DNA from: a virus | Virus record (IMG/VR): IMGVR_UViG_3300042882_001646 | Span: 1-32,383 of that record | Length of the DNA stretch: 32,383 bases | Reading direction: 5' to 3' (one strand) | In this document: in pieces, positions 4,267 to 30,055 of the stretch | How positions within the stretch are numbered: position 1 is the first letter of the stretch | How the letters are laid out: every line of letters begins with the position of its first letter | The notes under the pieces: model-generated | Seen by the model: the letters and a program-made list of their open reading frames with translations, nothing else | The model's database searches: none | What the model was told of the DNA's origin: nothing | Program-made: the position numbers and the translations under genes

Positions 4267-4575
4267 CTACTGGCTTGAAATGTTTTTTTTCAATTCAGCG
4301 AGTTTGGTTTCAATTTCTTTTATGATTTCAATATTGTTACTTCCGTAACTAGCGGAAGGTTCTTGCGCTATGTGTATGTTTTCTGTTTTTAAAAAGTAAT
4401 TATAATCAATGTCAAAATACTTTCCCATTGTGATAACCAAAGTGGGAGAAGCTTTTTTTGAGTTCGCTTGCTTTGAAAACAGAGTTTCACTATAACCCTC
4501 CATTTTTCTGCAAATCTCTCTGTTATTGAGGTTGTTATCTTTTTTAAATTTTTTGATTTTATCAGAAAAATCCAT
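4267..4575 (-). CDS. XRE/CI-like phage repressor (HTH, 102 aa)
   Basis: A small DNA-binding protein read leftward. Residues about 5-62 form a five-helix HTH_XRE domain: KIKKFKKDNNLNNREICRKM is helix 1 to the turn, GYSETLFSKQ is the recognition region, and GKYFDIDYNYFL is the closing helix. Residues 75-102 are a short amphipathic coiled-coil tail that could dimerise it. There is no LexA/CI-type S24 peptidase domain, so SOS self-cleavage is not expected from this protein. It is divergent from the early operon at 4686, with a 110-bp control region between them holding two copies of a motif that recurs before the gene at 16122. This is the standard layout of a lysogeny repressor. Repressor identity is inferred; HTH membership is well supported. 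Confidence 0.75.
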   Translation of the reverse strand: MDFSDKIKKFKKDNNLNNREICRKMEGYSETLFSKQANSKKASPTLVITMGKYFDIDYNYFLKTENIHIAQEPSASYGSNNIEIIKEIETKLAELKKNISSQ

Positions 4576-4602: not shown

Positions 4603-4666
4603 GCACTTTTTAGGAAAACTTTTTAAGTAAAGTTTCACTTTTCAAACAAACTATTTACTAATATTG
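4603..4666 (+). promoter_or_regulatory. Repressor-early divergent control region with operator-like repeats
   Basis: Two copies of a motif lie between the divergent genes: CACTTTTTAGGAAAACTTT at 4604-4622 and CACTTTTCAAACAAACTAT at 4636-4654. Between them, AAACTTT (4616-4622) and AAAGTTT (4630-4636) form an inverted pair. A TAATATTG at 4659-4666 matches the Bacteroidota -7 box TAnnTTTG at 7 of 8 positions and would drive the gene at 4686. The second motif copy lies immediately upstream of that box, where a bound repressor would block transcription. A third copy lies at 16078-16096. Operator function is inferred from position and repetition. Confidence 0.5.
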
Positions 4667-4969: not shown

Positions 4970-5527
4970 ATGAACCGAAAACTTTATCCAGGAATGACCG
5001 CAGATAGGTCGTTAGAAATCTTCGCCTATGAAGGTGAACTTAAAGTCATGAAAGAAGGTCAAGTAAAAAACTTCACAGACCTATCTTTTCAAGATATAGC
5101 CAGTATAACAGAAGCTATTGATGCCGACATCAATGTTAAACTAGCATTACACGATATGCATCCAGATTCACAGATGCGTCGTATTGCTCAATTTGCATTC
5201 TGCAGATTATCCGGACTAGATTTTCAACCAGACATTATCGACGGCAAATTACAAGATGGTGAGTACGTTGATTGTCCAAACCGTGGTAGTTGTCCACATG
5301 AAGGAACTTTATGCAAGCTTCCTGTAATTAACAACGAGCGACTCACCATCACCGATGTGCATCTTATGCAGCATTCTTCTAGCGAATTGACCAACGATGT
5401 CATTGCTGAAAAAATGGGAATGGCAATGGGAACACTTCACCAAGCAAAAAAAATCCTCTATAAAAAAATTGGCGTTCAAACTAAACAGCGATGCGCAGTT
5501 GTAGCCAATTTTCTGGGGCTTATTTAA
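4970..5527 (+). CDS. Phage transcriptional regulator with Cys cluster and LuxR-type HTH (185 aa)
   Basis: Residues about 100-115 contain a compact Cys cluster (CPNRGSCPHEGTLCK: C-x5-C-x6-C plus a His), probably a metal site. Residues about 122-185 are a GerE/LuxR-like C-terminal HTH: RLTITDVHLMQHSSSELTND, followed by IAEKMGMAMGTLHQAKKILY as scanning and recognition helices, and a final KIGVQTKQRCAVVANFLG helix. LuxR-type regulators with this tail occur in Bacteroidota phages. It sits 11 bases after the previous gene in the early operon, so it is a candidate activator of the next temporal class. A link to the CATGATACAC late promoters is speculation. Confidence 0.7.
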   Translation: MNRKLYPGMTADRSLEIFAYEGELKVMKEGQVKNFTDLSFQDIASITEAIDADINVKLALHDMHPDSQMRRIAQFAFCRLSGLDFQPDIIDGKLQDGEYVDCPNRGSCPHEGTLCKLPVINNERLTITDVHLMQHSSSELTNDVIAEKMGMAMGTLHQAKKILYKKIGVQTKQRCAVVANFLGLI

Positions 5528-15650: not shown

Positions 15651-16121
15651 CTCCTATCCAAAGCACATCCGACCGCAACATACAGAATTCCGCTTTAGAA
15701 ACTTACGTTTAAAAAGGCGCGGTTTTTCTTACGACATTTTCCCCCACACCCCCTAAAACCAAAAAAGGCACTTTAAAAATGTAATTTTGTAATATATGGT
15801 GAAATGCTTTGCTATCACTAAGATATTTAATTACATTTTTACTTTTATATTGTATAGATAATTACAAAAAAAATGTAATAATAAAAGAGCGTACAAAATT
15901 CAACTTTTCAGGAAGCTTCAAATTACAAATCGACTGTAATTAAAAAATGTCTTATTTTTCAATACTTCGCAGTATGTTTTTAGGGTCAATTACAGAATTA
16001 CATTTTTAAAGTGACTTTTTCGTAAATATTTAATATTTAAAGTTTACTTATAAAGTAAACTTTTTGACTTAAAAATTCACTTTTTAGACAAACTTTCCTA
16101 TCTTCGCTAAAACATTTCAAA
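15651..16121. promoter_or_regulatory. Non-coding inverted-repeat region (candidate attP, origin or control region)
   Basis: No gene fits here. A 25-bp arm at 15769-15793 (from CACTTTAAAAATGTAAT) recurs inverted at 15989-16013 with one mismatch. Between them lie further ATTACA/TGTAAT half sites, including ATTACATTTTTA at 15830-15841, ATTACA-N7-TGTAAT at about 15861-15879 and AATTACA-N7-TGTAATT at about 15920-15940. At 16039-16063 an 11-bp perfect inverted repeat (AAAGTTTACTT, 3-base centre) matches AAACTTT operator half sites. A C-run (15741-15753) lies at the left. Which of attP, replication origin or operator function applies cannot be decided from sequence. Confidence 0.45.
16076..16107 (+). 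promoter_or_regulatory. Promoter/operator before the second structural region
   Basis: CACTTTTTAGACAAACTTT at 16078-16096 is a copy of the motif found twice next to the repressor gene (4604 and 4636). TATCTTCG at 16100-16107 resembles the -7 box TAnnTTTG with one mismatch. TTCAC-to-box spacing (24 bases) is almost the same as at the early promoter (25 bases). The site probably places the gene at 16122 under repressor control. Confidence 0.45.
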
Positions 16122-19266: not shown

Positions 19267-19304
19267 CATGATACACTAAAAATTAGCATTGCTTTTTAGA
19301 TTTG
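19267..19304 (+). promoter_or_regulatory. Phage late promoter, copy 1
   Basis: CATGATACAC at 19267-19276, a 20-base spacer, and TAGATTTG at 19297-19304, which is a perfect TAnnTTTG -7 box. The same 10-mer and the same 20-base spacing occur at 21345 and 25408. It would start transcription about 28 bases before the holin candidate ATG at 19338. Confidence 0.7.
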
Positions 19305-19337
19305 AAGTCTATTAGTAATTCTAAAAAATTTTATTGT

Positions 19338-19583
19338 ATGAAAGCAATTAGAAACTGGCTTTTGCCTATCCTTTTAACACTCGGTGGAATTCTTGATTTT
19401 AGTTTTGACCTGATTACGCAATTTGCAGATGTACTGCATATTCCGAGTAGCATTGTCGACTGGATTAGAATTTTTATAGTAATCATCAGTGCTGTCATTT
19501 TGAAGTTGCAAGCGCCTAGCAATGATCCTGTTAAATTACAGGAGTTAGTGGCTCGTGCAAAAAAAATTAAAAAGCCTGAATAA
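19338..19583 (+). CDS. Probable holin (81 aa)
   Basis: Two hydrophobic segments (NWLLPILLTLGGILDFSFDL and SIVDWIRIFIVIISAVILKL) and a short charged C-terminus (LVARAKKIKKPE), a class II holin-like layout. The upstream TTG at 19302 would add 12 residues but overlaps the -7 box, so the ATG at 19338 is preferred. It precedes a spanin-like pair and the endolysin. Holins lack sequence conservation, so the call rests on topology and position. Confidence 0.55.
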   Translation: MKAIRNWLLPILLTLGGILDFSFDLITQFADVLHIPSSIVDWIRIFIVIISAVILKLQAPSNDPVKLQELVARAKKIKKPE

Positions 19584-19596
19584 TAGTAAATTTTAG

Positions 19597-19620
19597 AGCG
19601 CAGTTACGGCTGCGCTTTTT
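19597..19620 (+). terminator. Rho-independent terminator after the holin candidate
   Basis: AGCGCAG-TTACGG-CTGCGCT followed by five T. It lies 14 bases after the holin stop, so part of the transcript starting at 19.3 kb would end here, or it could act as an attenuator before the next gene. Confidence 0.75.
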
Positions 19621-19646
19621 CAGTTATTAATTAGTAAACGCTTTTT

Positions 19647-19943
19647 ATGGACCTAAATCAACTGAAAGAAATTGCAGATTTCTCTCCGCACAAAATCATT
19701 AAGTTATTGTTGTTTTTAAGTCTTTTTTTCAATTATACATTGATGAAGGACAAAGACATTATGCATGTAGAACATCAATCAGAAATTCGTGCTTTAAATA
19801 AAATACACGCCGTTGAGATAAAATTTAAAGACGATAAAATTAACCAGGTGCAAGACGAGAAAATCAATTACATGAAAGAAACAATTTCTGGTCAGATTTA
19901 TCTAGAAAGAGTGGTGGATAGTATCAAAAAATCAAGAAAATGA
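19647..19943 (+). CDS. Spanin-like membrane/coiled-coil protein (98 aa)
   Basis: One N-terminal membrane span (HKIIKLLLFLSLFFNYTLM) followed by a charged helical region (RALNKIHAVEIKFKDDKINQ...) to the end. This is the layout of an inner-membrane spanin (Rz-like). It overlaps the next small exported protein by 4 bases. Assignment from layout only. Confidence 0.45.
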   Translation: MDLNQLKEIADFSPHKIIKLLLFLSLFFNYTLMKDKDIMHVEHQSEIRALNKIHAVEIKFKDDKINQVQDEKINYMKETISGQIYLERVVDSIKKSRK

Positions 19944-20134
19944 AAAAGATTTTACTAATCGCAATACTTTTTCCCACTCTTGGCGTAACCTCAAGAGAAG
20001 AAAAAAAACCTTTACCGATTCCTTTGTCGAATGATCGTCCAACACCGGAACAGATAGAACAATTATTGAAAAACGAGATTAATGTTCGTAATTCAAAATT
20101 GATTTTGAGCATTGAAGAAATCAAAAATGAATAA
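19940..20134 (+). CDS. Small exported protein beside the lysis genes (64 aa)
   Basis: A signal-peptide-like N-terminus MKKILLIAILFPTLGVTS is followed by a short Pro-rich segment and an amphipathic helix (TPEQIEQLLKNEINVRNSK). No Cys in a lipobox position, so it is not a classical outer-membrane spanin. Overlaps the preceding spanin-like gene by 4 bases and precedes the endolysin by 2. Confidence 0.45.
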   Translation: MKKILLIAILFPTLGVTSREEKKPLPIPLSNDRPTPEQIEQLLKNEINVRNSKLILSIEEIKNE

Positions 20135-20136
20135 TT

Positions 20137-20655
20137 ATGAATAATTACAACTACCTCAATTTAGAGCAAGGACCAAAAGTTATTGATGAAGCCATGAAGC
20201 TTTTAGGCACTAAAGAAATTGCTGGCCCAGCTCATTCAAAAGCTATTATGTCTTGGGCGGAAACGCTCGGTATAAAAGATTATAAAAACGATGAAATCCC
20301 GTGGTGTGGGTTGTTAGTAGCCATCGTAGTTCATCGTGCCGGATTTGATGTAGTTAAAGACCCACTTTGGGCTGCAAATTGGGGCAAATTTGGAACTAAA
20401 CAAAAAGTAGCCATGAAAGGTGATATACTCACTTTTAAAAGACCAGGTGGAAATCACGTTGGTTTTTATGTTGGCGAAGATGCAACACACTATCATCTAT
20501 TGGGCGGAAATCAAGCGAACATGGTCAATATCATTAGAATCGATAAATCGAGATTAAAGAATATTCGTCGTTGCCCTTGGAGAATGTCGCAACCTGCAAC
20601 TGTTCGACAAGTATTATTGAGTGAAACAGGATTAATTTCACAAAACGAAGCTTAA
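20137..20655 (+). CDS. Endolysin, TIGR02594-like peptidoglycan hydrolase (172 aa)
   Basis: A TIGR02594/CHAP-type cysteine hydrolase: IPWCGLLVA puts the nucleophile at Cys57, GNHVGFYVGED puts the catalytic His at about 107, and ILTFKRPGG and YHLLGGNQ are the other conserved parts. The N-terminal KVIDEAMKLLGTKEIAG helix is the family start. It cuts peptidoglycan cross-links or peptides; without a signal peptide it depends on the upstream holin to reach the wall. Length is typical. Confidence 0.82.
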   Translation: MNNYNYLNLEQGPKVIDEAMKLLGTKEIAGPAHSKAIMSWAETLGIKDYKNDEIPWCGLLVAIVVHRAGFDVVKDPLWAANWGKFGTKQKVAMKGDILTFKRPGGNHVGFYVGEDATHYHLLGGNQANMVNIIRIDKSRLKNIRRCPWRMSQPATVRQVLLSETGLISQNEA

Positions 20656-20662
20656 AAAAATC

Positions 20663-21349
20663 ATGAGAAGATTCTACAGATTACTCCCCTGGATTCTATT
20701 CATCATTGTTTGTCTATTTTATTACAATTCTTGCCAAAATAAAAAAGGCGCAGCCGAGAATATAGTTCCTATTGTTGTTTCCGAGCAAACGGGAAAGTTT
20801 GATGCAGTCAAGCCAGATCAAAAAATAGTTAGACAAAAACCGGCAGGACAAAATTTGTCCAAAACTTTAGCGTCTGAGGATTTATCATTGTCCGATGAGC
20901 AAATCGCAAAGGATCTTCTTATCGATAAACTATTGTGTCAAAACGATTCCTTATCAAAAGCATTTTCCGAGATTGAAAATGATTCTGCAAAAACAGCGAA
21001 GTACAACCAAGCAAATGCCATCCGTGAGTATAAACACACTTTCGAAGACACAGCGGTAAAAATCAATATTGGTGGTTTGGTGCGTGGCGAAATTCAATCC
21101 ATGTCATGCGATTGGAAAGTAAAGGAACGAACAGTTCCGGCGCAAATCAAAACGTGGCGGATTCTCGGTGGTGTTGAACTAGGTTCTACGCAAGCCTTAG
21201 ATAGATTTGGCGCAAAGGCGAATTTCCGTTATCAATCGGCAAAAGATAATCTTTACAGTATAGGTTTTGACAATACCAAAATGATTTGGGTTGGTTACGA
21301 TATGCCGATTTTTAAGCGTACACGTGTCAAAACCCTACAAAAACCATGA
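20663..21349 (+). CDS. Membrane-anchored spanin/lysis-accessory-like protein (228 aa)
   Basis: An N-terminal membrane anchor (LLPWILFIIVCLFYYNS), an extended charged linker (about 35-80), a coiled coil (DEQIAKDLLIDKLLCQNDSL) and a C-terminal beta-rich part (TWRILGGVELGSTQAL, KMIWVGYDMPIF). Proteins like this sit next to Bacteroidota phage endolysins and may bridge the envelope as spanins. The final TGA overlaps the CATGATACAC element of the next promoter. Confidence 0.5.
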   Translation: MRRFYRLLPWILFIIVCLFYYNSCQNKKGAAENIVPIVVSEQTGKFDAVKPDQKIVRQKPAGQNLSKTLASEDLSLSDEQIAKDLLIDKLLCQNDSLSKAFSEIENDSAKTAKYNQANAIREYKHTFEDTAVKINIGGLVRGEIQSMSCDWKVKERTVPAQIKTWRILGGVELGSTQALDRFGAKANFRYQSAKDNLYSIGFDNTKMIWVGYDMPIFKRTRVKTLQKP

Positions 21350-21382
21350 TACACACAAGGATTAGCGATAATCGCAAATTTG
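21345..21382 (+). promoter_or_regulatory. Phage late promoter, copy 2
   Basis: CATGATACAC at 21345-21354, a 20-base spacer, and CAAATTTG at 21375-21382, a -7 box with one mismatch to TAnnTTTG. The spacer carries a small palindrome GCGATAATCGC (21365-21375). It would start the protease-capsid transcript about 10-12 bases before the ATG at 21399. Confidence 0.7.
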
Positions 21383-21398
21383 TTAAAAATAGGAAAGC

Positions 21399-22289
21399 AT
21401 GAAAATCAATCCGCTTATAAATGATATTTCTCGTGGTGTTTGGGCCATGAGTTTTGAGGGCTTACAAGTTTGGGGCCCATTGGCGCACAAACTACTCAAC
21501 GGAGAAAAGATTGATATGGGTTTGCCACAAGAGGCAGAACCGAAAGCACTGATCAGTTATCGCAATGATTCTGGTAAAAAGATTGAGATGAATTCCGAAG
21601 GACAAGTTCCTCCAGGAACGGTTGCTGTGGTAGATATGATTGGTGCTATTATAAAGTACGGCGATTGGTGTACTTATGGCGCCGATGAAATCGTGTTGGC
21701 TTTGCAAGCTGCAGACGACAATCCGAATGTAGTTGCAACGATTTTAAATATAGATGGCCCAGGTGGTTCCGTTTCTGCCATCGCTCCATTTAAAGCTTTC
21801 GGTTTGACAAAGAAAAAACCAGTAGTTGGTTTATATGATCAGTGTTGCTCCGCACATTTATATAGTATGCTTGTTTGTTGTGATCATGTGATGGCATCTA
21901 ACGACATTTCGGCGGTGATTGGTTCTGTGGGTGTTGTGTTGTCCTGGAGCGACAACAAAAAATATCTTGAAACATTAGGTTACGTATTTCACGAAGTATA
22001 TCCAGAAGAAAGTGCCAACAAAAACGAAGCGTTTCGTTTGGCAATGGAAGGAAAGTATGAGATGATAAAATGTGAAATGCTTTCGCCGATGGCAATCAAT
22101 TTTCAGCAAGCGGTGATGAAAGCGCGTCCGAATTTAGATTTACGGGAACCTGGAGTAATTACCGGAAAAACATTCAATACCGAGAAAGCACTTGGTATTG
22201 GATATGCTGACAGTATGGGCAGTATGCAAGACGCCATTTTCTTGGCTTTGACAATGAGTGAGATGAATTCGCTATATAAAATTAATTAA
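21399..22289 (+). CDS. Prohead protease, S49/SppA-like (296 aa)
   Basis: ClpP/crotonase-fold S49 peptidase: the oxyanion strand ATILNIDGPGGSVSAI, then the nucleophile region LYDQCCSAHLYSML with Ser151, then the family block MASNDISAVIGSVGVVL. The C-terminal third is helical (AFRLAMEGKYEMIKCEM, NFQQAVMKARPNL) and ends in GKTFNTEKALGIGYADSMGS. S49-type proteases process scaffold and capsid in many phages, and the capsid-scaffold fusion lies 19 bases downstream. Confidence 0.82.
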   Translation: MKINPLINDISRGVWAMSFEGLQVWGPLAHKLLNGEKIDMGLPQEAEPKALISYRNDSGKKIEMNSEGQVPPGTVAVVDMIGAIIKYGDWCTYGADEIVLALQAADDNPNVVATILNIDGPGGSVSAIAPFKAFGLTKKKPVVGLYDQCCSAHLYSMLVCCDHVMASNDISAVIGSVGVVLSWSDNKKYLETLGYVFHEVYPEESANKNEAFRLAMEGKYEMIKCEMLSPMAINFQQAVMKARPNLDLREPGVITGKTFNTEKALGIGYADSMGSMQDAIFLALTMSEMNSLYKIN

Positions 22290-22308
22290 CAACTAAATCA
22301 AATTACCT

Positions 22309-24483
22309 ATGAAATTTAATTTTCAAGCTATGCCGAAGACAGTTGCATTTTTAAAAGTCCTTTTTGGATGGGACGAAATGCCTGTTGATGCTGTAAAAAA
22401 AGAGGTGGTTTTTACAGCGGAGCAAGACGCAACGCTAAAAGCCAAATTTGGTGACGATTATGTTACCAAAATGAAAGCTGCTCTCAATAAAGAGGTGGCA
22501 GAGATGCACGATAACAGTTTAGAATTGAAAGCCGTTCAAGACGAACTCGATGCTATGGTTAAACAGTCAGGTTTGACTGCAGAAGAATTAGAAAAGATTG
22601 CTAAAGATGAAAAAGGCGACAAGTCTATGGTTGCTACGATCAAGGCAATTACTGAGAAACAAAAAGAGCATAATGCTTTATTTAAAAGATTGGTTGCAGA
22701 AAACATCGGTGACCAACCAGAAGCAGTAATCGAAATTGGAAAAAACATGAAAGTAAAGCATTCTGACACGCACCTTTTTGCCTCTGGTAAAGATTATGAT
22801 GCTACAGATCGTCCTTGGAACAGAAAAGCGGTTGCTTTAGCTTCCGGAAATGTTCAAGTTGGCGCGACAGATTTTACCGATCAGCCTACCATTCAAAAGT
22901 TGAATGATGACATGAAGCTCTATTATAGAGAAAATCCTACTGAATTAAAGTCGCTTACACGCGATAAGTTTGGTTTACCAGAATTCTGGCCAACGAGAAC
23001 TAAAGTAGATGATTTGGTTGCTGACGGAAGCATCGCTACGGCAGAAGTTTCTCAAACCAGAAAATTGAATTGGTTACCTAAAAACAAGCAAACGATTCAA
23101 GCGGAAGAAGGAAAAATTTTCCCAATTCAGATTGATGCTGAGTTCATCGGATTCAGACTTCAAAAAATGGAAGCATCTTGGTTGAATATGATGAACAAAG
23201 AAGGTTCACAACCTTACAAAGAAAGCTTTGTAAAATTCCTAGTTTCTGAGATTGACAAAAAAGCGCGTATCGAGGATAGAGTTGCTACAATCAAAGGAAT
23301 CTATGTTGAAACTCCAGAAACGGCAACCGAAGCAGGAAGAGCTATCAACAGACAAAACGGATTGTTGTACTTGTTACAGCAAGCACGTGATGTGAAGAAA
23401 AAATACCGTGCTTTCGATAATGGTTTACCTACGACTACAAATATTGTAGATTATATCGATCAGCAAATCAAAGCGCTTCCTCTTGAAGTTAGAGAAGCTC
23501 CGAATTTGGTTTTATATCTTTCTACAGAATGGTTGCAAGCTTACAAACGTAGAAGCGAAACGCTTTTTGGAACCAATACGGACTATACCGGTTATCCTGT
23601 AAATCCGAAAGATTATCCAAACATTCGTTTTGAAAGATTGGTTGACATGGCAGGTTCTGACTTTATGTTCATCACTTTTGATGATAACATCGAGATCTTA
23701 GAAAACGTTCCTGCAGAAAAATCAATGTACAAATTTGAGTACCTATTGAGAAAAATGTACATCTGGGCTGACTATAAAATGGGAGTTCGATTAATTCATA
23801 TTGGTAACACAGTTGAAGCTGGAGATCCGGATGAATTTAAAGTTCAAACAGTTTGGTCGAATACTGCTCCGATTTTCCCAGCAGATACTTATGTGCCTTT
23901 CCACGAAACATCTACTGGTACAGCATTGAAATTGTCATACAATAATGTTTATGTTACTAAAAACAGAACATCTAATGTAGTTTCAATTTCTAACTATGCG
24001 GACTATGCTGGACAAGTAATCAAAATCAAAGGTGATACCGGATTAGCGACTGCCGTTTTGGTAAAACATGATAATGCAAAAATTAAATTGGCAAGCAATG
24101 CCGACTTCGATTTGCAATCAGGCGGAACTTTGAAGTTATTCGTTCCGCAATCGGGAGTTCCTTTTGAGTTGTCAAGAACAACTTTACCAGAAGTAAATAC
24201 AGTTGTAGCTGTAAACTTTACAGGTGGTATTGTTGATGCCAATTTAGGTTCAGAATTTAAAGGAATTCATACCGCTACTACAGCCATTTCTTCGGTAATC
24301 AATGGAGTGCCAGGAAAAACAATCAGAATTTACGGTACAGACGCTGCAAGCCAAAACTTAACGTTGTCTACTACAGGTAATATCAAAATGAACTCTTCCG
24401 CAACATTAGACACTTCAGCAGATTATGTTGAATTGACATTGGTTGATGGAACTTGGACTGAAACGAAACGTGTAATCGCTTAA
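22309..24483 (+). CDS. Scaffold-major capsid fusion protein (724 aa)
   Basis: Residues about 40-140 are a charged helical scaffold-like region (DATLKAKFGDDYVTKMKAAL, KAVQDELDAMVKQSGLTAEE). Residues about 180-510 look like the capsid proper (REAPNLVLYLSTEWLQAYKR, TNTDYTGYPVNPKDYPNIRF, FEYLLRKMYIWADYKMGVRL). Residues about 560-724 are two Thr/Ser-rich beta domains resembling Ig-like decoration. The N-terminal part would be removed by the S49 protease just upstream. No capsid-specific motif is unique, so the call rests on size, domain order and position. Confidence 0.7.
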   Translation: MKFNFQAMPKTVAFLKVLFGWDEMPVDAVKKEVVFTAEQDATLKAKFGDDYVTKMKAALNKEVAEMHDNSLELKAVQDELDAMVKQSGLTAEELEKIAKDEKGDKSMVATIKAITEKQKEHNALFKRLVAENIGDQPEAVIEIGKNMKVKHSDTHLFASGKDYDATDRPWNRKAVALASGNVQVGATDFTDQPTIQKLNDDMKLYYRENPTELKSLTRDKFGLPEFWPTRTKVDDLVADGSIATAEVSQTRKLNWLPKNKQTIQAEEGKIFPIQIDAEFIGFRLQKMEASWLNMMNKEGSQPYKESFVKFLVSEIDKKARIEDRVATIKGIYVETPETATEAGRAINRQNGLLYLLQQARDVKKKYRAFDNGLPTTTNIVDYIDQQIKALPLEVREAPNLVLYLSTEWLQAYKRRSETLFGTNTDYTGYPVNPKDYPNIRFERLVDMAGSDFMFITFDDNIEILENVPAEKSMYKFEYLLRKMYIWADYKMGVRLIHIGNTVEAGDPDEFKVQTVWSNTAPIFPADTYVPFHETSTGTALKLSYNNVYVTKNRTSNVVSISNYADYAGQVIKIKGDTGLATAVLVKHDNAKIKLASNADFDLQSGGTLKLFVPQSGVPFELSRTTLPEVNTVVAVNFTGGIVDANLGSEFKGIHTATTAISSVINGVPGKTIRIYGTDAASQNLTLSTTGNIKMNSSATLDTSADYVELTLVDGTWTETKRVIA

Positions 24484-24510
24484 TTGTTTTAAGCGTAATT
24501 TATATACAAA

Positions 24511-25335
24511 ATGACATATATTAAATCAAATTTAGCAGCACCAACAGGCATTTCTGCTGGTGCTGGTTCTGGTAAAGATCAGGTAACGATTGTTTTGGCA
24601 GATGATGTATCTGTATTTCCTCCTAGAGATGGCGGCGGTGTGAAAATGCTAGGAAACTTTGCGATGAAGCCTGGTGCGAGAATGGTTACTTTATACACGA
24701 CTAAGTCAAAAGGAGAAGCTCCTGTGACTACTGATGGTGATGAAGATTCTATTTCAATCAAGCAAATGTTCAACACACAACATCCGGGCAACCGTTTGGA
24801 AGTAAAAGAGTTTGTTCAGAACTGGTTGGGTAAAAACGTGTATATCTTGCACAAAGCTTGTCAAGATGATTTCTTTGAAGTAATGGGAACGCCATGTGCG
24901 CCATTGCAATTGAAACCAGAGAAAACAGACACGAACGATGCAAGATTCTGGTCGTTGAAATTTGAAGCATTTGCAAAATCTGCTTATGTTCCTGGTCACT
25001 ACGAAGGTGAGTTAGTTCTTGCTGCTCCATACGCTGTATCAGCTGCTACGGATGTTCCGATGTTGAAAGCCAATGGTACGCAGTTTAAATTGCCTGCTAC
25101 GACTTCAGCAACCGCTATTGGTGTTGATGGTATTGACTTTGACCATGGTACATATGTAACTTTAATTGGTTCTGGTGGTACTACAGCTGCTACGGCATCG
25201 CAAGGTGTTGCAGGAGATGCGACTTTAGTTTTAAAATCAGGTACTGCTTGGACCGCGCTGGAAGGTGCTGTACTTCAGTTACAAGTTTTTAAAGCTGGAG
25301 CGACCACTTATTTGTTTGAATTATCGAGAGGGTAA
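24511..25335 (+). CDS. Major tail-tube-like or capsid-decoration protein (274 aa)
   Basis: A 274-residue protein with an SNLAAPTGISAGAGSGKDQV start and a compact middle region (ISIKQMFNTQHPGNRLEVKE, WLGKNVYILHKACQDDFFEV), then a C-terminal beta domain (VTLIGSGGTTAATASQGVAG, AVLQLQVFKAGATTYLFEL). The repetitive beta C-terminus resembles the one in the capsid gene. Abundant structural protein by position and Gly/Ala/Thr richness; tail tube versus capsid stabiliser cannot be decided. Confidence 0.5.
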   Translation: MTYIKSNLAAPTGISAGAGSGKDQVTIVLADDVSVFPPRDGGGVKMLGNFAMKPGARMVTLYTTKSKGEAPVTTDGDEDSISIKQMFNTQHPGNRLEVKEFVQNWLGKNVYILHKACQDDFFEVMGTPCAPLQLKPEKTDTNDARFWSLKFEAFAKSAYVPGHYEGELVLAAPYAVSAATDVPMLKANGTQFKLPATTSATAIGVDGIDFDHGTYVTLIGSGGTTAATASQGVAGDATLVLKSGTAWTALEGAVLQLQVFKAGATTYLFELSRG

Positions 25336-25363
25336 TTTTTTATAATTATTTTTAGATTGGGGG

Positions 25364-25396
25364 AAAAGCCACTGTGTAATGCAGTGGCTTTTTTTA
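25364..25396 (+). terminator. Rho-independent terminator after the capsid operon
   Basis: AAGCCACTG-TGTAATG-CAGTGGCTT followed by a run of T. It lies about 30 bases after the 274-aa gene and just before the third late promoter, so the capsid transcript ends here. Confidence 0.85.
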
Positions 25397-25407
25397 TGTG
25401 TGTCGGT

Positions 25408-25445
25408 CATGATACACATAAAAAAAAAGGTAATTACCAATTTTG
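25408..25445 (+). promoter_or_regulatory. Phage late promoter, copy 3
   Basis: CATGATACAC at 25408-25417, a 20-base spacer, and CAATTTTG at 25438-25445 (-7 box, one mismatch). The palindrome GTAATTAC occurs at 25430-25437 and 25452-25459, 22 bases apart and straddling the -7 box, a possible operator pair. It would drive the gene at 25491. Confidence 0.7.
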
Positions 25446-25490
25446 ACTATCGTAATTACTAAAAAAGAAAAGAACTAAAAAATAAAAGAT

Positions 25491-27770: not shown

Positions 27771-28380
27771 CCTACAGGATATTTACGACTTTATGGAGCG
27801 CGGGAACCCCGAGAACGCTCCGGAGCATATCGTTGCTTACTTAAATTTATTGGATGCCGCTCGCGGGATGATGTTGCGTATTGATAAGTTTAGCAATGAT
27901 GAAATGATTATCAAGCATTTTATTTTGGTTGTCGGACTTTCTCGCTATAAAGCAAGGCAGATTATAGACGAAGCGAGAGAGTATTTTTACTGTGATTCAA
28001 AAGTAAGTAAAGCAGCGTGGCGTAACATTTATGGCGAAAAAGCGGAAAAAGCTTTGAATTTCGCTATGCTAACCATGAAAGATGCCAAAGACGCCATTGC
28101 AGTCATTAAAGCAATCAAAGAACTCATCGATATTCGAGGGGTAAATGAGCCCGACAAAGACGAGCTTCCTGATGAGTTATTTCAGAAACAAATTGTTGTT
28201 TATACTACCGATACGCGTCAGTTGGGCTTGCCGTATATGGATAGAAATAGAATTAAGGAACTTATCGATAAAAAAATACCAGGACTGAACGAAAAAGAGC
28301 GCGAAATGATTTATCGTGAAGCAGATATTTTACCATTTAAAGCATTTCTAGATGAGTCGGAAAACGCACGTAAAGTTTGA
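27745..28380 (+). CDS. Phage packaging-region protein, candidate small terminase (211 aa)
   Basis: A 211-residue, mostly helical protein (DIYDFMERGNPENAPEHIVA, KFSNDEMIIKHFILVVGLSR, AKQIIDEAREYFYC-type helices, then KEREMIYREADILPF). No catalytic motif. It overlaps the upstream HTH gene by 26 bases and the large terminase by 29, so these three are co-translated. It is an alternative candidate for the small terminase subunit. Confidence 0.5.
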   Translation: MEMTINDISLQDIYDFMERGNPENAPEHIVAYLNLLDAARGMMLRIDKFSNDEMIIKHFILVVGLSRYKARQIIDEAREYFYCDSKVSKAAWRNIYGEKAEKALNFAMLTMKDAKDAIAVIKAIKELIDIRGVNEPDKDELPDELFQKQIVVYTTDTRQLGLPYMDRNRIKELIDKKIPGLNEKEREMIYREADILPFKAFLDESENARKV

Positions 28381-30055
28381 TGATAATGATATAGACTATC
28401 GTTTTGCTTCTAAAGTCAAAATGCTAGTCGATTTGATTGCGCCCAAGGATCTCTATTTGGTTGCAGGTCGTGCCACTGCGAAAACTTCTGATATCATAGC
28501 AGAGCGTTCTCGCCATATTATGTGGGATATGCCTCGCAGTTATCAGATGTTTGTTTCTGACACCTATATCAATGCGCTAACGAATGTCGTTCCGGCATTG
28601 ATTGAAGGTTGGCAGCGAAAAGGTTGGCGTGAGGGAATTCATTTTGTGACCGATAAGCGGCCGCCGTCGCATTTTGCTTTGCCTTATAAACCGCCGTTGC
28701 ATTATAAACACACGATTTCTATTTATAACGGTTGCTTTATGAATTTGGGAAGTCTAGATCAGCCATCGGGATTGGCGGGTTCTTCTTATCAGCATCGTTA
28801 CGGCGATGAAGCTCGTTTGCTGAAGAAAAAGAAACTAGACCGTTCTACTCCAGCACTTCGTGGAGAATATGCTGCATTTGGACATTCGGTGTATTATATG
28901 GGCAATACCTTTACGACCGATATGCCAAATATTTTACTCAGCGATGACGATTGGATCTTGAGTATGGAAAAGGAAATGGACCAGGAGCAAATTGAACTGG
29001 CTTTGCATGCTGCATTAAAATTGAATGAAGTCAAGCAAGAGTTTTTGAATGCCAAGCAATCTGGCGATTTTTCCCAACGGGCAAGATTAGAACGATCGAT
29101 GAAAGAGTGGACGTATATCTGGACAAAAATCAGAAAAGACTCGACTTTCTTTTATGCCGTTTCTTCGTTGGTCAATTTGGATATTTTGACCGATGGATAT
29201 TTCAAAGCGAATTTGAAAGCTTTGGGGCCAGAAGAATTTAAGTCGGCGATTTTGTCGTTTCGCATTGCCGTAAACCAGGGCGAGAAATTTTATAGCAATT
29301 TGGGCGACCATCATTTTTATGATGACGGTTCATTTAAGGAATACTACGACCAATTTAGTATCATGGATAGCGTTGATGATACCAGTTTGGCGCTTCGGTA
29401 TATAGATCACAATTCACGGTTAGAAGCAGGAATTGATTTTGGAGATATGTGCAGCATGATTAGCGGTCAACGTCGTGGTAACATTCTGTATGGACTGAAA
29501 GAATTTTATACTTTGGCTCCGGAAAATGAAGTGCAGTTGGGTGCAAAGTTTCGTGATTTTTATAAGCATCACAAAACAAAATATTTAGAATTGTATTATG
29601 ATAGAAGCGGAAATGCCAATTCTAAAACAAAACGCGATTGGGCATCGGCAATCAAAAAGGCAATTGAGTTTTTGCCTGATGGCACTTCATCTGGATGGAT
29701 TGTAGAGCTGAAGTCAGTCGGACAAGGAACTATATACCAAGAGGAAGAATTTAACTTTGCAAAAGCTATGATGGCGGGTAATGTTCCTGGACTGCCAGTG
29801 TTGAAACTTGACCGTTATAAATGCAAAAATCTAAAATCTTCTTTAGAGCTCACAAAGATTTTAGTAAAAACAGACAAGCATGGTTCTCGTACCATTCACA
29901 AAAATAAATCTAGTGAATCTTTACCTTTGCCTTCACGTCCGATGTTCTCGACAAATTTCTCTGATGCTTTTAAATACTGGATTTACCGTCCTGAATTTGT
30001 CAGTTTGGTAAATACGGAAAGTCAATATAGAGGAATGGATCCTACGGTGCATTAA
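28352..30055 (+). CDS. Terminase large subunit (567 aa)
   Basis: An ATPase-nuclease packaging motor. Walker A-like GRATAKTS (residues 39-46) and Walker B RYGDEARLL (Asp152-Glu153) form the ATPase. The nuclease half starts at LEAGIDFGDM (Asp362) with a second acidic site in ELYYDRSGNA (about 416). Length and domain order are normal. It cleaves and pumps phage DNA into the prohead. No portal gene follows in the window; instead a small zinc protein and a leftward operon come next. Confidence 0.85.
   Translation: MSRKTHVKFDDNDIDYRFASKVKMLVDLIAPKDLYLVAGRATAKTSDIIAERSRHIMWDMPRSYQMFVSDTYINALTNVVPALIEGWQRKGWREGIHFVTDKRPPSHFALPYKPPLHYKHTISIYNGCFMNLGSLDQPSGLAGSSYQHRYGDEARLLKKKKLDRSTPALRGEYAAFGHSVYYMGNTFTTDMPNILLSDDDWILSMEKEMDQEQIELALHAALKLNEVKQEFLNAKQSGDFSQRARLERSMKEWTYIWTKIRKDSTFFYAVSSLVNLDILTDGYFKANLKALGPEEFKSAILSFRIAVNQGEKFYSNLGDHHFYDDGSFKEYYDQFSIMDSVDDTSLALRYIDHNSRLEAGIDFGDMCSMISGQRRGNILYGLKEFYTLAPENEVQLGAKFRDFYKHHKTKYLELYYDRSGNANSKTKRDWASAIKKAIEFLPDGTSSGWIVELKSVGQGTIYQEEEFNFAKAMMAGNVPGLPVLKLDRYKCKNLKSSLELTKILVKTDKHGSRTIHKNKSSESLPLPSRPMFSTNFSDAFKYWIYRPEFVSLVNTESQYRGMDPTVH

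Follow-up and report, generated by a model that had tools for sequence, protein, structure and literature searches.

The DNA considered here (the window, 32,383 nucleotides of one viral record) carries an XRE-like repressor gene at the head of the region, an early operon that includes the gene at 4970, and, further downstream, a putative lysis region and the genes for capsid formation and packaging (Table 1). Based on the homology of its protease, capsid, terminase and tail genes to those of the Flavobacterium phages laban6-1 and 6H and the Cellulophaga phage Ingeline, the window phage is evidently Duneviridae-like. These three phages served as reference relatives and were compared together with about 25 IMG/VR phages and with ~90 loci encoding a related S49 protease gathered from viral and bacterial collections; the records in the comparison are mostly metagenomic. 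Of the reference phages, laban6-1 undergoes spontaneous induction in LMO6 (PMC7077304). The window lacks the conserved portal-side and tape-measure genes, and the record is therefore evidently incomplete.

Table 1. Coordinates of the genes and sequence features discussed in the text
Feature	Positions	Strand	Basis or context
XRE-like repressor, homologue of laban6-1 gp057	4267..4575	-	phrog_21356; tblastn to 6H/23T/laban6-1
Direct repeat D6, 76% over 41 nt	4612..4652 and 16054-16094	+ (4612..4652)	before early operon (incl. 4970) and gene 16122
Candidate late activator, 185 aa	4970..5527	+	phrog_10300 E 3e-44; homologue of laban6-1 gp054
Putative late-promoter element copy 1, CATGATACAC	19267..19276	+	orthologous element after g18724 homologue in L121-L127, L130
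-7-type box TAGATTTG, promoter 1 (lysis region)	19297..19304	+	sequence, relatives
Putative late-promoter element copy 2, CATGATACAC	21345..21354	+	orthologous element 5' of S49 protease, most relatives
-7-type box CAAATTTG, promoter 2 (protease-capsid)	21375..21382	+	sequence, relatives
S49-type prohead protease, first gene of promoter-2 unit	21399..22289	+	PF01343 E 4e-7
Capsid-region protein, phrog_21862, laban6-1 gp037 homologue	22309..24483	+	64% identity to laban6-1
Intrinsic-terminator hairpin AGCCACTG..CAGTGGCT + T run	25367..25395	+	just 5' of promoter 3; layout common to relatives
Putative late-promoter element copy 3, CATGATACAC	25408..25417	+	orthologous element between g24511 and g25491 in relatives
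Palindrome GGTAATTACC touching -7 box, GTAATTAC copy downstream	25429..25459	+	packaging promoter only
-7-type box CAATTTTG, promoter 3 (packaging)	25438..25445	+	sequence, relatives
Large terminase by synteny, laban6-1 gp029 position	28352..30055	+	tblastn to relatives

Three exact copies of the 10-mer CATGATACAC are present in the window, all on the + strand, with no fourth copy on either strand, and at each of the three exactly 20 nt separate the 10-mer from a box of the YAnnTTTG type. These observations, from which the sequence-only reading of this DNA had started, were reproduced in full by exact search, as was its statement that the copies lie between genes or at gene edges: copy 1 begins 4 nt past a stop codon, copy 2 shares bases with the stop codon (TGA) of the gene at 20663-21349, and copy 3 is downstream of the terminator hairpin. 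That such a 10-mer would be expected far less than once also proved correct, in that the base composition predicts (by arithmetic) ~0.06 exact copies per window against the three observed. Among 300 windows simulated with an order-3 Markov model, none contained any 10-mer with at least three occurrences at one shared gap of 15-23 nt before YAnnTTTG; the real + strand has one such 10-mer, which is CATGATACAC, and the reverse strand has none. With up to two mismatches allowed, CATGATACAC has 18 matches in the window against 23 expected, which places the additional matches at the level of chance. The proposal that the copies precede separate late units (lysis, protease-capsid and packaging) agrees with the synteny to laban6-1, the lysis unit being assigned by position only.

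The relatives carry CATGTTACA, CATGTCACA, CGTGTCACA and similar elements, followed by a -7-type box, at the orthologous places, which are after the g18724 homologue, before the protease, and between the homologues of g24511 and g25491. The elements have a core of TG[TA][CT]ACA, or are of the types TGTCTTAAA or TGTCCTTTT, and full genomes contain additional copies 5' of the portal-side operon and the tape-measure gene, up to five per genome. Phages 6H and Ingeline were not picked up by an initial strict scan because their boxes belong to other types (TGTCTTAAA, TGTCCTTTT); read directly from their promoters, the 6H-type element is CATGTCTTAAA and the Ingeline-type element is TGTCCTTTT. A search of viral contigs for the exact 10-mer plus box disclosed no relative that uses exact CATGATACAC. 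As a motif to be sought in related phages, which is how it had been put forward, the element was thus recovered in its fixed spacing and its promoter class, but not as the exact 10-mer, and exact CATGATACAC is apparently the window phage's own variant of a wider class. The matches to the exact 10-mer at 19-21 nt that did turn up in viral contigs (117 stretches) were rejected as chance, because there is a single match per stretch, a gap of 20 nt is not favoured (gaps of 19, 20 and 21 nt occur 35, 9 and 17 times), and window homologues are almost lacking among them (two remote terminase matches only). In our estimation it is very likely that the three sites of the window are late promoters of one class.

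To judge from its sequence, the promoter class is one that extends to the Helgolandviridae phage Leef, which has four ATGTCCTTTT elements, before its protease, packaging, portal and tail units. In three cases the element is directly 3' of a terminator-like hairpin; the -7 boxes of Leef are less regular. A divergent homologue of the regulator described below is also encoded by Leef. As a separate observation, a phage whose host is recorded, perhaps wrongly, as Microcystis (L347, MZ447863) has the same regulator type and late promoters of the TGTCCTTTT type that are otherwise seen in Bacteroidota phages.

The spacing between element and box was counted in 28 phages by scanning gaps of 12 to 30 nt from each phage's own 7-mer to a strict nAnnTT[TC]G box. 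Of 50 boxes found, 47 are at 21 nt, two at 20 nt and one at 19 nt, with none at any other gap; since the 28 phages are related these cases are not independent trials, and the set was built with knowledge of the motif types, a problem from which the host and reversed-pattern controls are free. Antisense copies of the own 7-mer have two scattered boxes, neither of them at 19-21 nt. When promoters were counted over five element types, 95 had the type proper to the phage that carries them and 10 had a different one. The pattern TGTYACA-N21-nAnnTTYG has 26 matches in 13 phage records, on a single strand in each, and its reversed form has none; in seven host genomes (~28 Mb) there are 22 matches to the pattern and 19 to the control, that is, no excess. 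The repeated box is absent from FCV-1 (in which no regulator match was found either), B40-8 and 50 kb of crAss001, each with at most single chance matches.

The aligned sites read YCA-TGT[CT]ACA-nC, followed by unconserved bases and then the box, for which the consensus is nAnnTT[TC]G in 68 sites and TAnnnTTG in 24, and the distance from the box to the first ATG 3' of it is often 14-18 nt. These promoters resemble the Bacteroidota sigmaA promoter (-33 TTTG, -7 TAnnTTTG) in the -7 box, including its A/T/T/G positions and a predicted start ~5 nt after it, and in the approximate distance to the upstream element. They differ from it in that no TTTG is conserved around -33, a position occupied instead by TG[TA][CT]ACA or TGTC.., in keeping with the earlier suggestion that the 10-mer takes the place of the -33 element; the phage-specific element is 7-9 bp long and stands at a nearly invariant 21-nt spacing. 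The -7 box of Bacteroidota has been positioned at -12 to -5 (PMC9723704, PMC6847099), and the element would therefore cover about -40 to -34. In F. johnsoniae the -33 element is weak (PMC6847099).

The gene at 4970, a Cys-cluster/LuxR-type regulator that had been named among the candidates for a reader of the 10-mer, now appears to be the best of them. Its product has a C-terminal HTH of the GerE/LuxR type (aa 125-179) and a Cys-rich N-terminal part in which C102, C108 and C115 are invariant or nearly so. The GerE score of the window protein is below the cut-off (16.8 bits), as are those of other homologues tested, with the homologues of Ingeline and G012 above it. A profile search matched the DNA-binding domains of ComA (4e-4), NarL (4e-3) and also VraR. 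The AlphaFold model (pLDDT 90) was aligned by Foldseek with DosR/NarL DNA-binding domains over ~60 residues, with probability 1.0 and rmsd 1.1-1.7 A, at an E value of only 0.015, and the N-terminal part matched no solved fold. Among signal and DNA-binding domains GerE alone is matched, and no autoinducer-binding domain of Pfam was found even with E values as high as 10 admitted. On this modelled fold the GerE HTH is a plausible reader of the element, against which it might be said that a single element of 7-9 bp is short for a GerE-type dimer.

When the laban6-1 proteins were searched in 12 compared genomes, the regulator was the sole recognised DNA-binding family present in all 12; the other families so distributed, once the incompleteness of the window is taken into account, comprise g18724/gp042 and the genes for structural proteins and packaging. 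Further protease-bearing records yielded the regulator in 24 of 30 and in 11 of 18 cases, counts to be read in the knowledge that the bacterial genomes among these records also contain unrelated LuxR proteins. Two more records, G053 and G054, have GerE matches near their ends. No GerE protein was detected in G048, G056 and G059 (46-52 kb), in which sites of the TGTCCTTT type are present and the reader may have been replaced or have diverged strongly, nor was the regulator found in G061, a 6H-like record that is possibly incomplete. Elsewhere, gp13 of crAss001 (L350 6772-7155), near the packaging genes, is annotated as a VpsT-like (LuxR-fold) regulator.

A maximum-likelihood tree separates the regulators of TGTCCTTTT phages from those of TGTYACA, TGTCTTA and TGATACA phages (support 100/100), so that the two clades of the regulator track the two main box classes. 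One exception is G030, which has a regulator within the TGTCCTTTT group and the element TATCACA. A second apparent exception, the viral contig G063 (71.6 kb; L341-L344), seemed to pair a window-type regulator with TGTCCTTTT and was ruled out as such, the contig being two tandem phages, each with its own terminase, regulator and box type: an Ingeline-type regulator with TGTCCTTTT boxes, and a window-type regulator with CATGTCTTAAA boxes. The tandem arrangement could be an assembly join; if truly assembled, it would place two circuits in one host, an argument against a host factor. The recognition helix begins with GSFHL in five of five TGTTACA phages (G002, G011, G013, G036, G069). A recognition code in which GSFHL denotes TGTTACA and other residues denote TGTCACA fitted 22 phages and was broken by the TGTCACA phage G068, which also has GSFHL. 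Co-variation of regulator and box at the level of residues is weak and at most suggestive, there being few independent events behind it and too few independent pairs for a phylogenetic pair test.

Binding of the box by the 4970 protein, activation of transcription there and the timing of this during infection are what we infer. After induction, the early operon (4686 onward) would yield the GerE/LuxR-fold protein, which would occupy the element, some 40 to 34 nt before the start (about -40 to -34), and recruit or stabilise the host sigmaA RNA polymerase at the host-type -7 box (-12 to -5) of late promoters that have no good -33 element. The lysis, protease-capsid and packaging operons would be switched on together in this manner, and the portal and tape-measure operons of full-length relatives would obey the same rule. 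Regulator and box would have changed jointly across lineages (TGATACA, TGTCACA, TGTTACA, TGTCTTAAA, TGTCCTTTT), so that the late promoters of each phage might answer to its own regulator. A phage activator acting at -40 to -34 with the host sigmaA polymerase at the late operons is, in our judgement, the best and a likely explanation of the sites, and with similar assurance we take the 4970 protein to be that activator.

Other readers of the element can be envisaged. Another phage protein, either the g18724/gp042 product or one of the XRE family, might read the box and the LuxR-type protein might do something else; g18724/gp042 is likewise present in 12 of 12 genomes, just 5' of promoter 1, and the three box-bearing phages with no detectable GerE protein speak against the 4970 protein as reader. 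However, g18724 has no DNA-binding match, the XRE family was not found in two of the 12 genomes, and the regulator clades follow the box classes, all of which make this reading unlikely. If the LuxR-type gene encoded a quorum-sensing receptor by which host density decided between lysis and lysogeny, its link to the box being a coincidence, this would accord with its family name and with the LuxR-type receptors carried by other phages (PMC8776804). We consider this improbable for a protein in which GerE is the only domain matched and the N-terminal part resembles no solved fold, and which is present in all 12 compared box-bearing genomes.

The sequence-only reading had left the choice between a phage activator and an alternative sigma factor, and of the two the activator is favoured by the fixed spacing, the agreement of boxes within a phage, the host and negative controls, and the phyletic pattern. 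A phage-encoded sigma factor recognising both parts of the promoter would explain the location of the element at the usual -35 position; Sigma70_r2 was matched in none of 33 phage records (10 of 14 controls were positive), which makes such a factor unlikely, and with the -7 part retaining the host sigmaA form we give it only a very slight chance. Scarcely more credible is a host transcription factor or host alternative sigma factor, even though the -7 box is host-like and host ECF factors exist, given that the pattern is not in excess in the seven host genomes, that the box type is uniform in each phage but varies from one phage to another, even where both types are on one contig, and that the element is not among the six sigma motifs described for F. 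psychrophilum (PMC9723704). That the 10-mer recurs by chance, or serves some other purpose such as packaging or recombination, might be suspected from the presence of only three copies in the window, one of them before the packaging genes, but this can be practically dismissed in view of the simulations and of the dozens of relatives in which sites before operons keep a constant distance to the -7 box.

A repeated box before several late operons, at a fixed spacing to a host core element, is what characterises activator-dependent late promoters of phages, and the promoters described here show this arrangement; that they require a phage-encoded activator is suggested by the phyletic pattern and by co-variation. 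In T4 middle promoters a MotA box at -30 accompanies the host -10 sequence, and the likeness to the promoters described here lies in the retention of a host -10-type box and the presumed replacement of the -35 contact by an activator box at fixed spacing. The differences from the MotA system are a GerE-type HTH with a Cys-rich N-terminal part, the late operons, the Bacteroidota polymerase, and the fact that no AsiA-like partner was identified. The late promoters of P2, P4 and 186 depend on the activators Ogr, Delta and B, Ogr being a zinc-finger protein with boxes near -55; there, as is proposed for the present phages, a small phage activator switches several late operons through a repeated box, whereas the box described here is near -37 and its likely reader is GerE-like. 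Proteins of the GerE/NarL/ComA type have the C-terminal HTH fold in common with the 4970 protein, which differs from them in being phage-borne, in an N-terminal part without a match to receiver or autoinducer domains, and in its presumed use of a single short site. The LuxR-type quorum-sensing receptors of phages (PMC8776804 and studies cited therein) also place a LuxR-type HTH in temperate phages, but the 4970 protein is without a matched autoinducer-binding domain and is linked to late promoters.

In the literature searched, outside of which most subscription journals lie, no late promoters are described for phages of flavobacteria or Bacteroides or for Duneviridae, and late-gene switching in the temperate phages of Bacteroidota appears there to be undescribed. 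LuxR genes in Duneviridae, Helgolandviridae and Forsetiviridae have been read as quorum-sensing genes (PMC8776804), an interpretation of the same gene that is called into question here. We think it rather likely that a late-promoter class is shared by temperate phages of Bacteroidota from at least two families (Duneviridae and Helgolandviridae), with a GerE-fold activator bearing a Cys-rich sensor or partner domain, with co-diversification of box and reader, and with separate circuits for phages that share a host. If this is true, the published reading of these LuxR genes as quorum-sensing genes is wrong. The precise promoter consensus should allow operons to be annotated in many phages, the 4970 protein is a testable candidate activator, and the natural regulator-box pairs provide a set for studying the evolution of DNA specificity.

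The window contains further sequences of possible regulatory or mobile character. The palindrome at the packaging promoter is kept as GTAATTAC or, in another lineage, GCAATTGC in many relatives, often with a second copy ~21 bp downstream, and is likely to be a second operator confined to that promoter. The direct repeat D6 is possibly the operator of the repressor encoded at 4267, in which case the regulator at 4970 would come under repressor control. Between 10281 and 13305 there are small ORFs, and 3' of several of them lies an element of 120-170 nt whose ends are palindromic (GATAACGTCGGAC ... GCGGTTAT). Two copies of the element are 94% identical over 136 nt, and two of four have a folding z of ~-4 (single-strand). 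In its organization this region resembles a gene-cassette array with attC-like sites, located inside a phage and just before a serine integrase.
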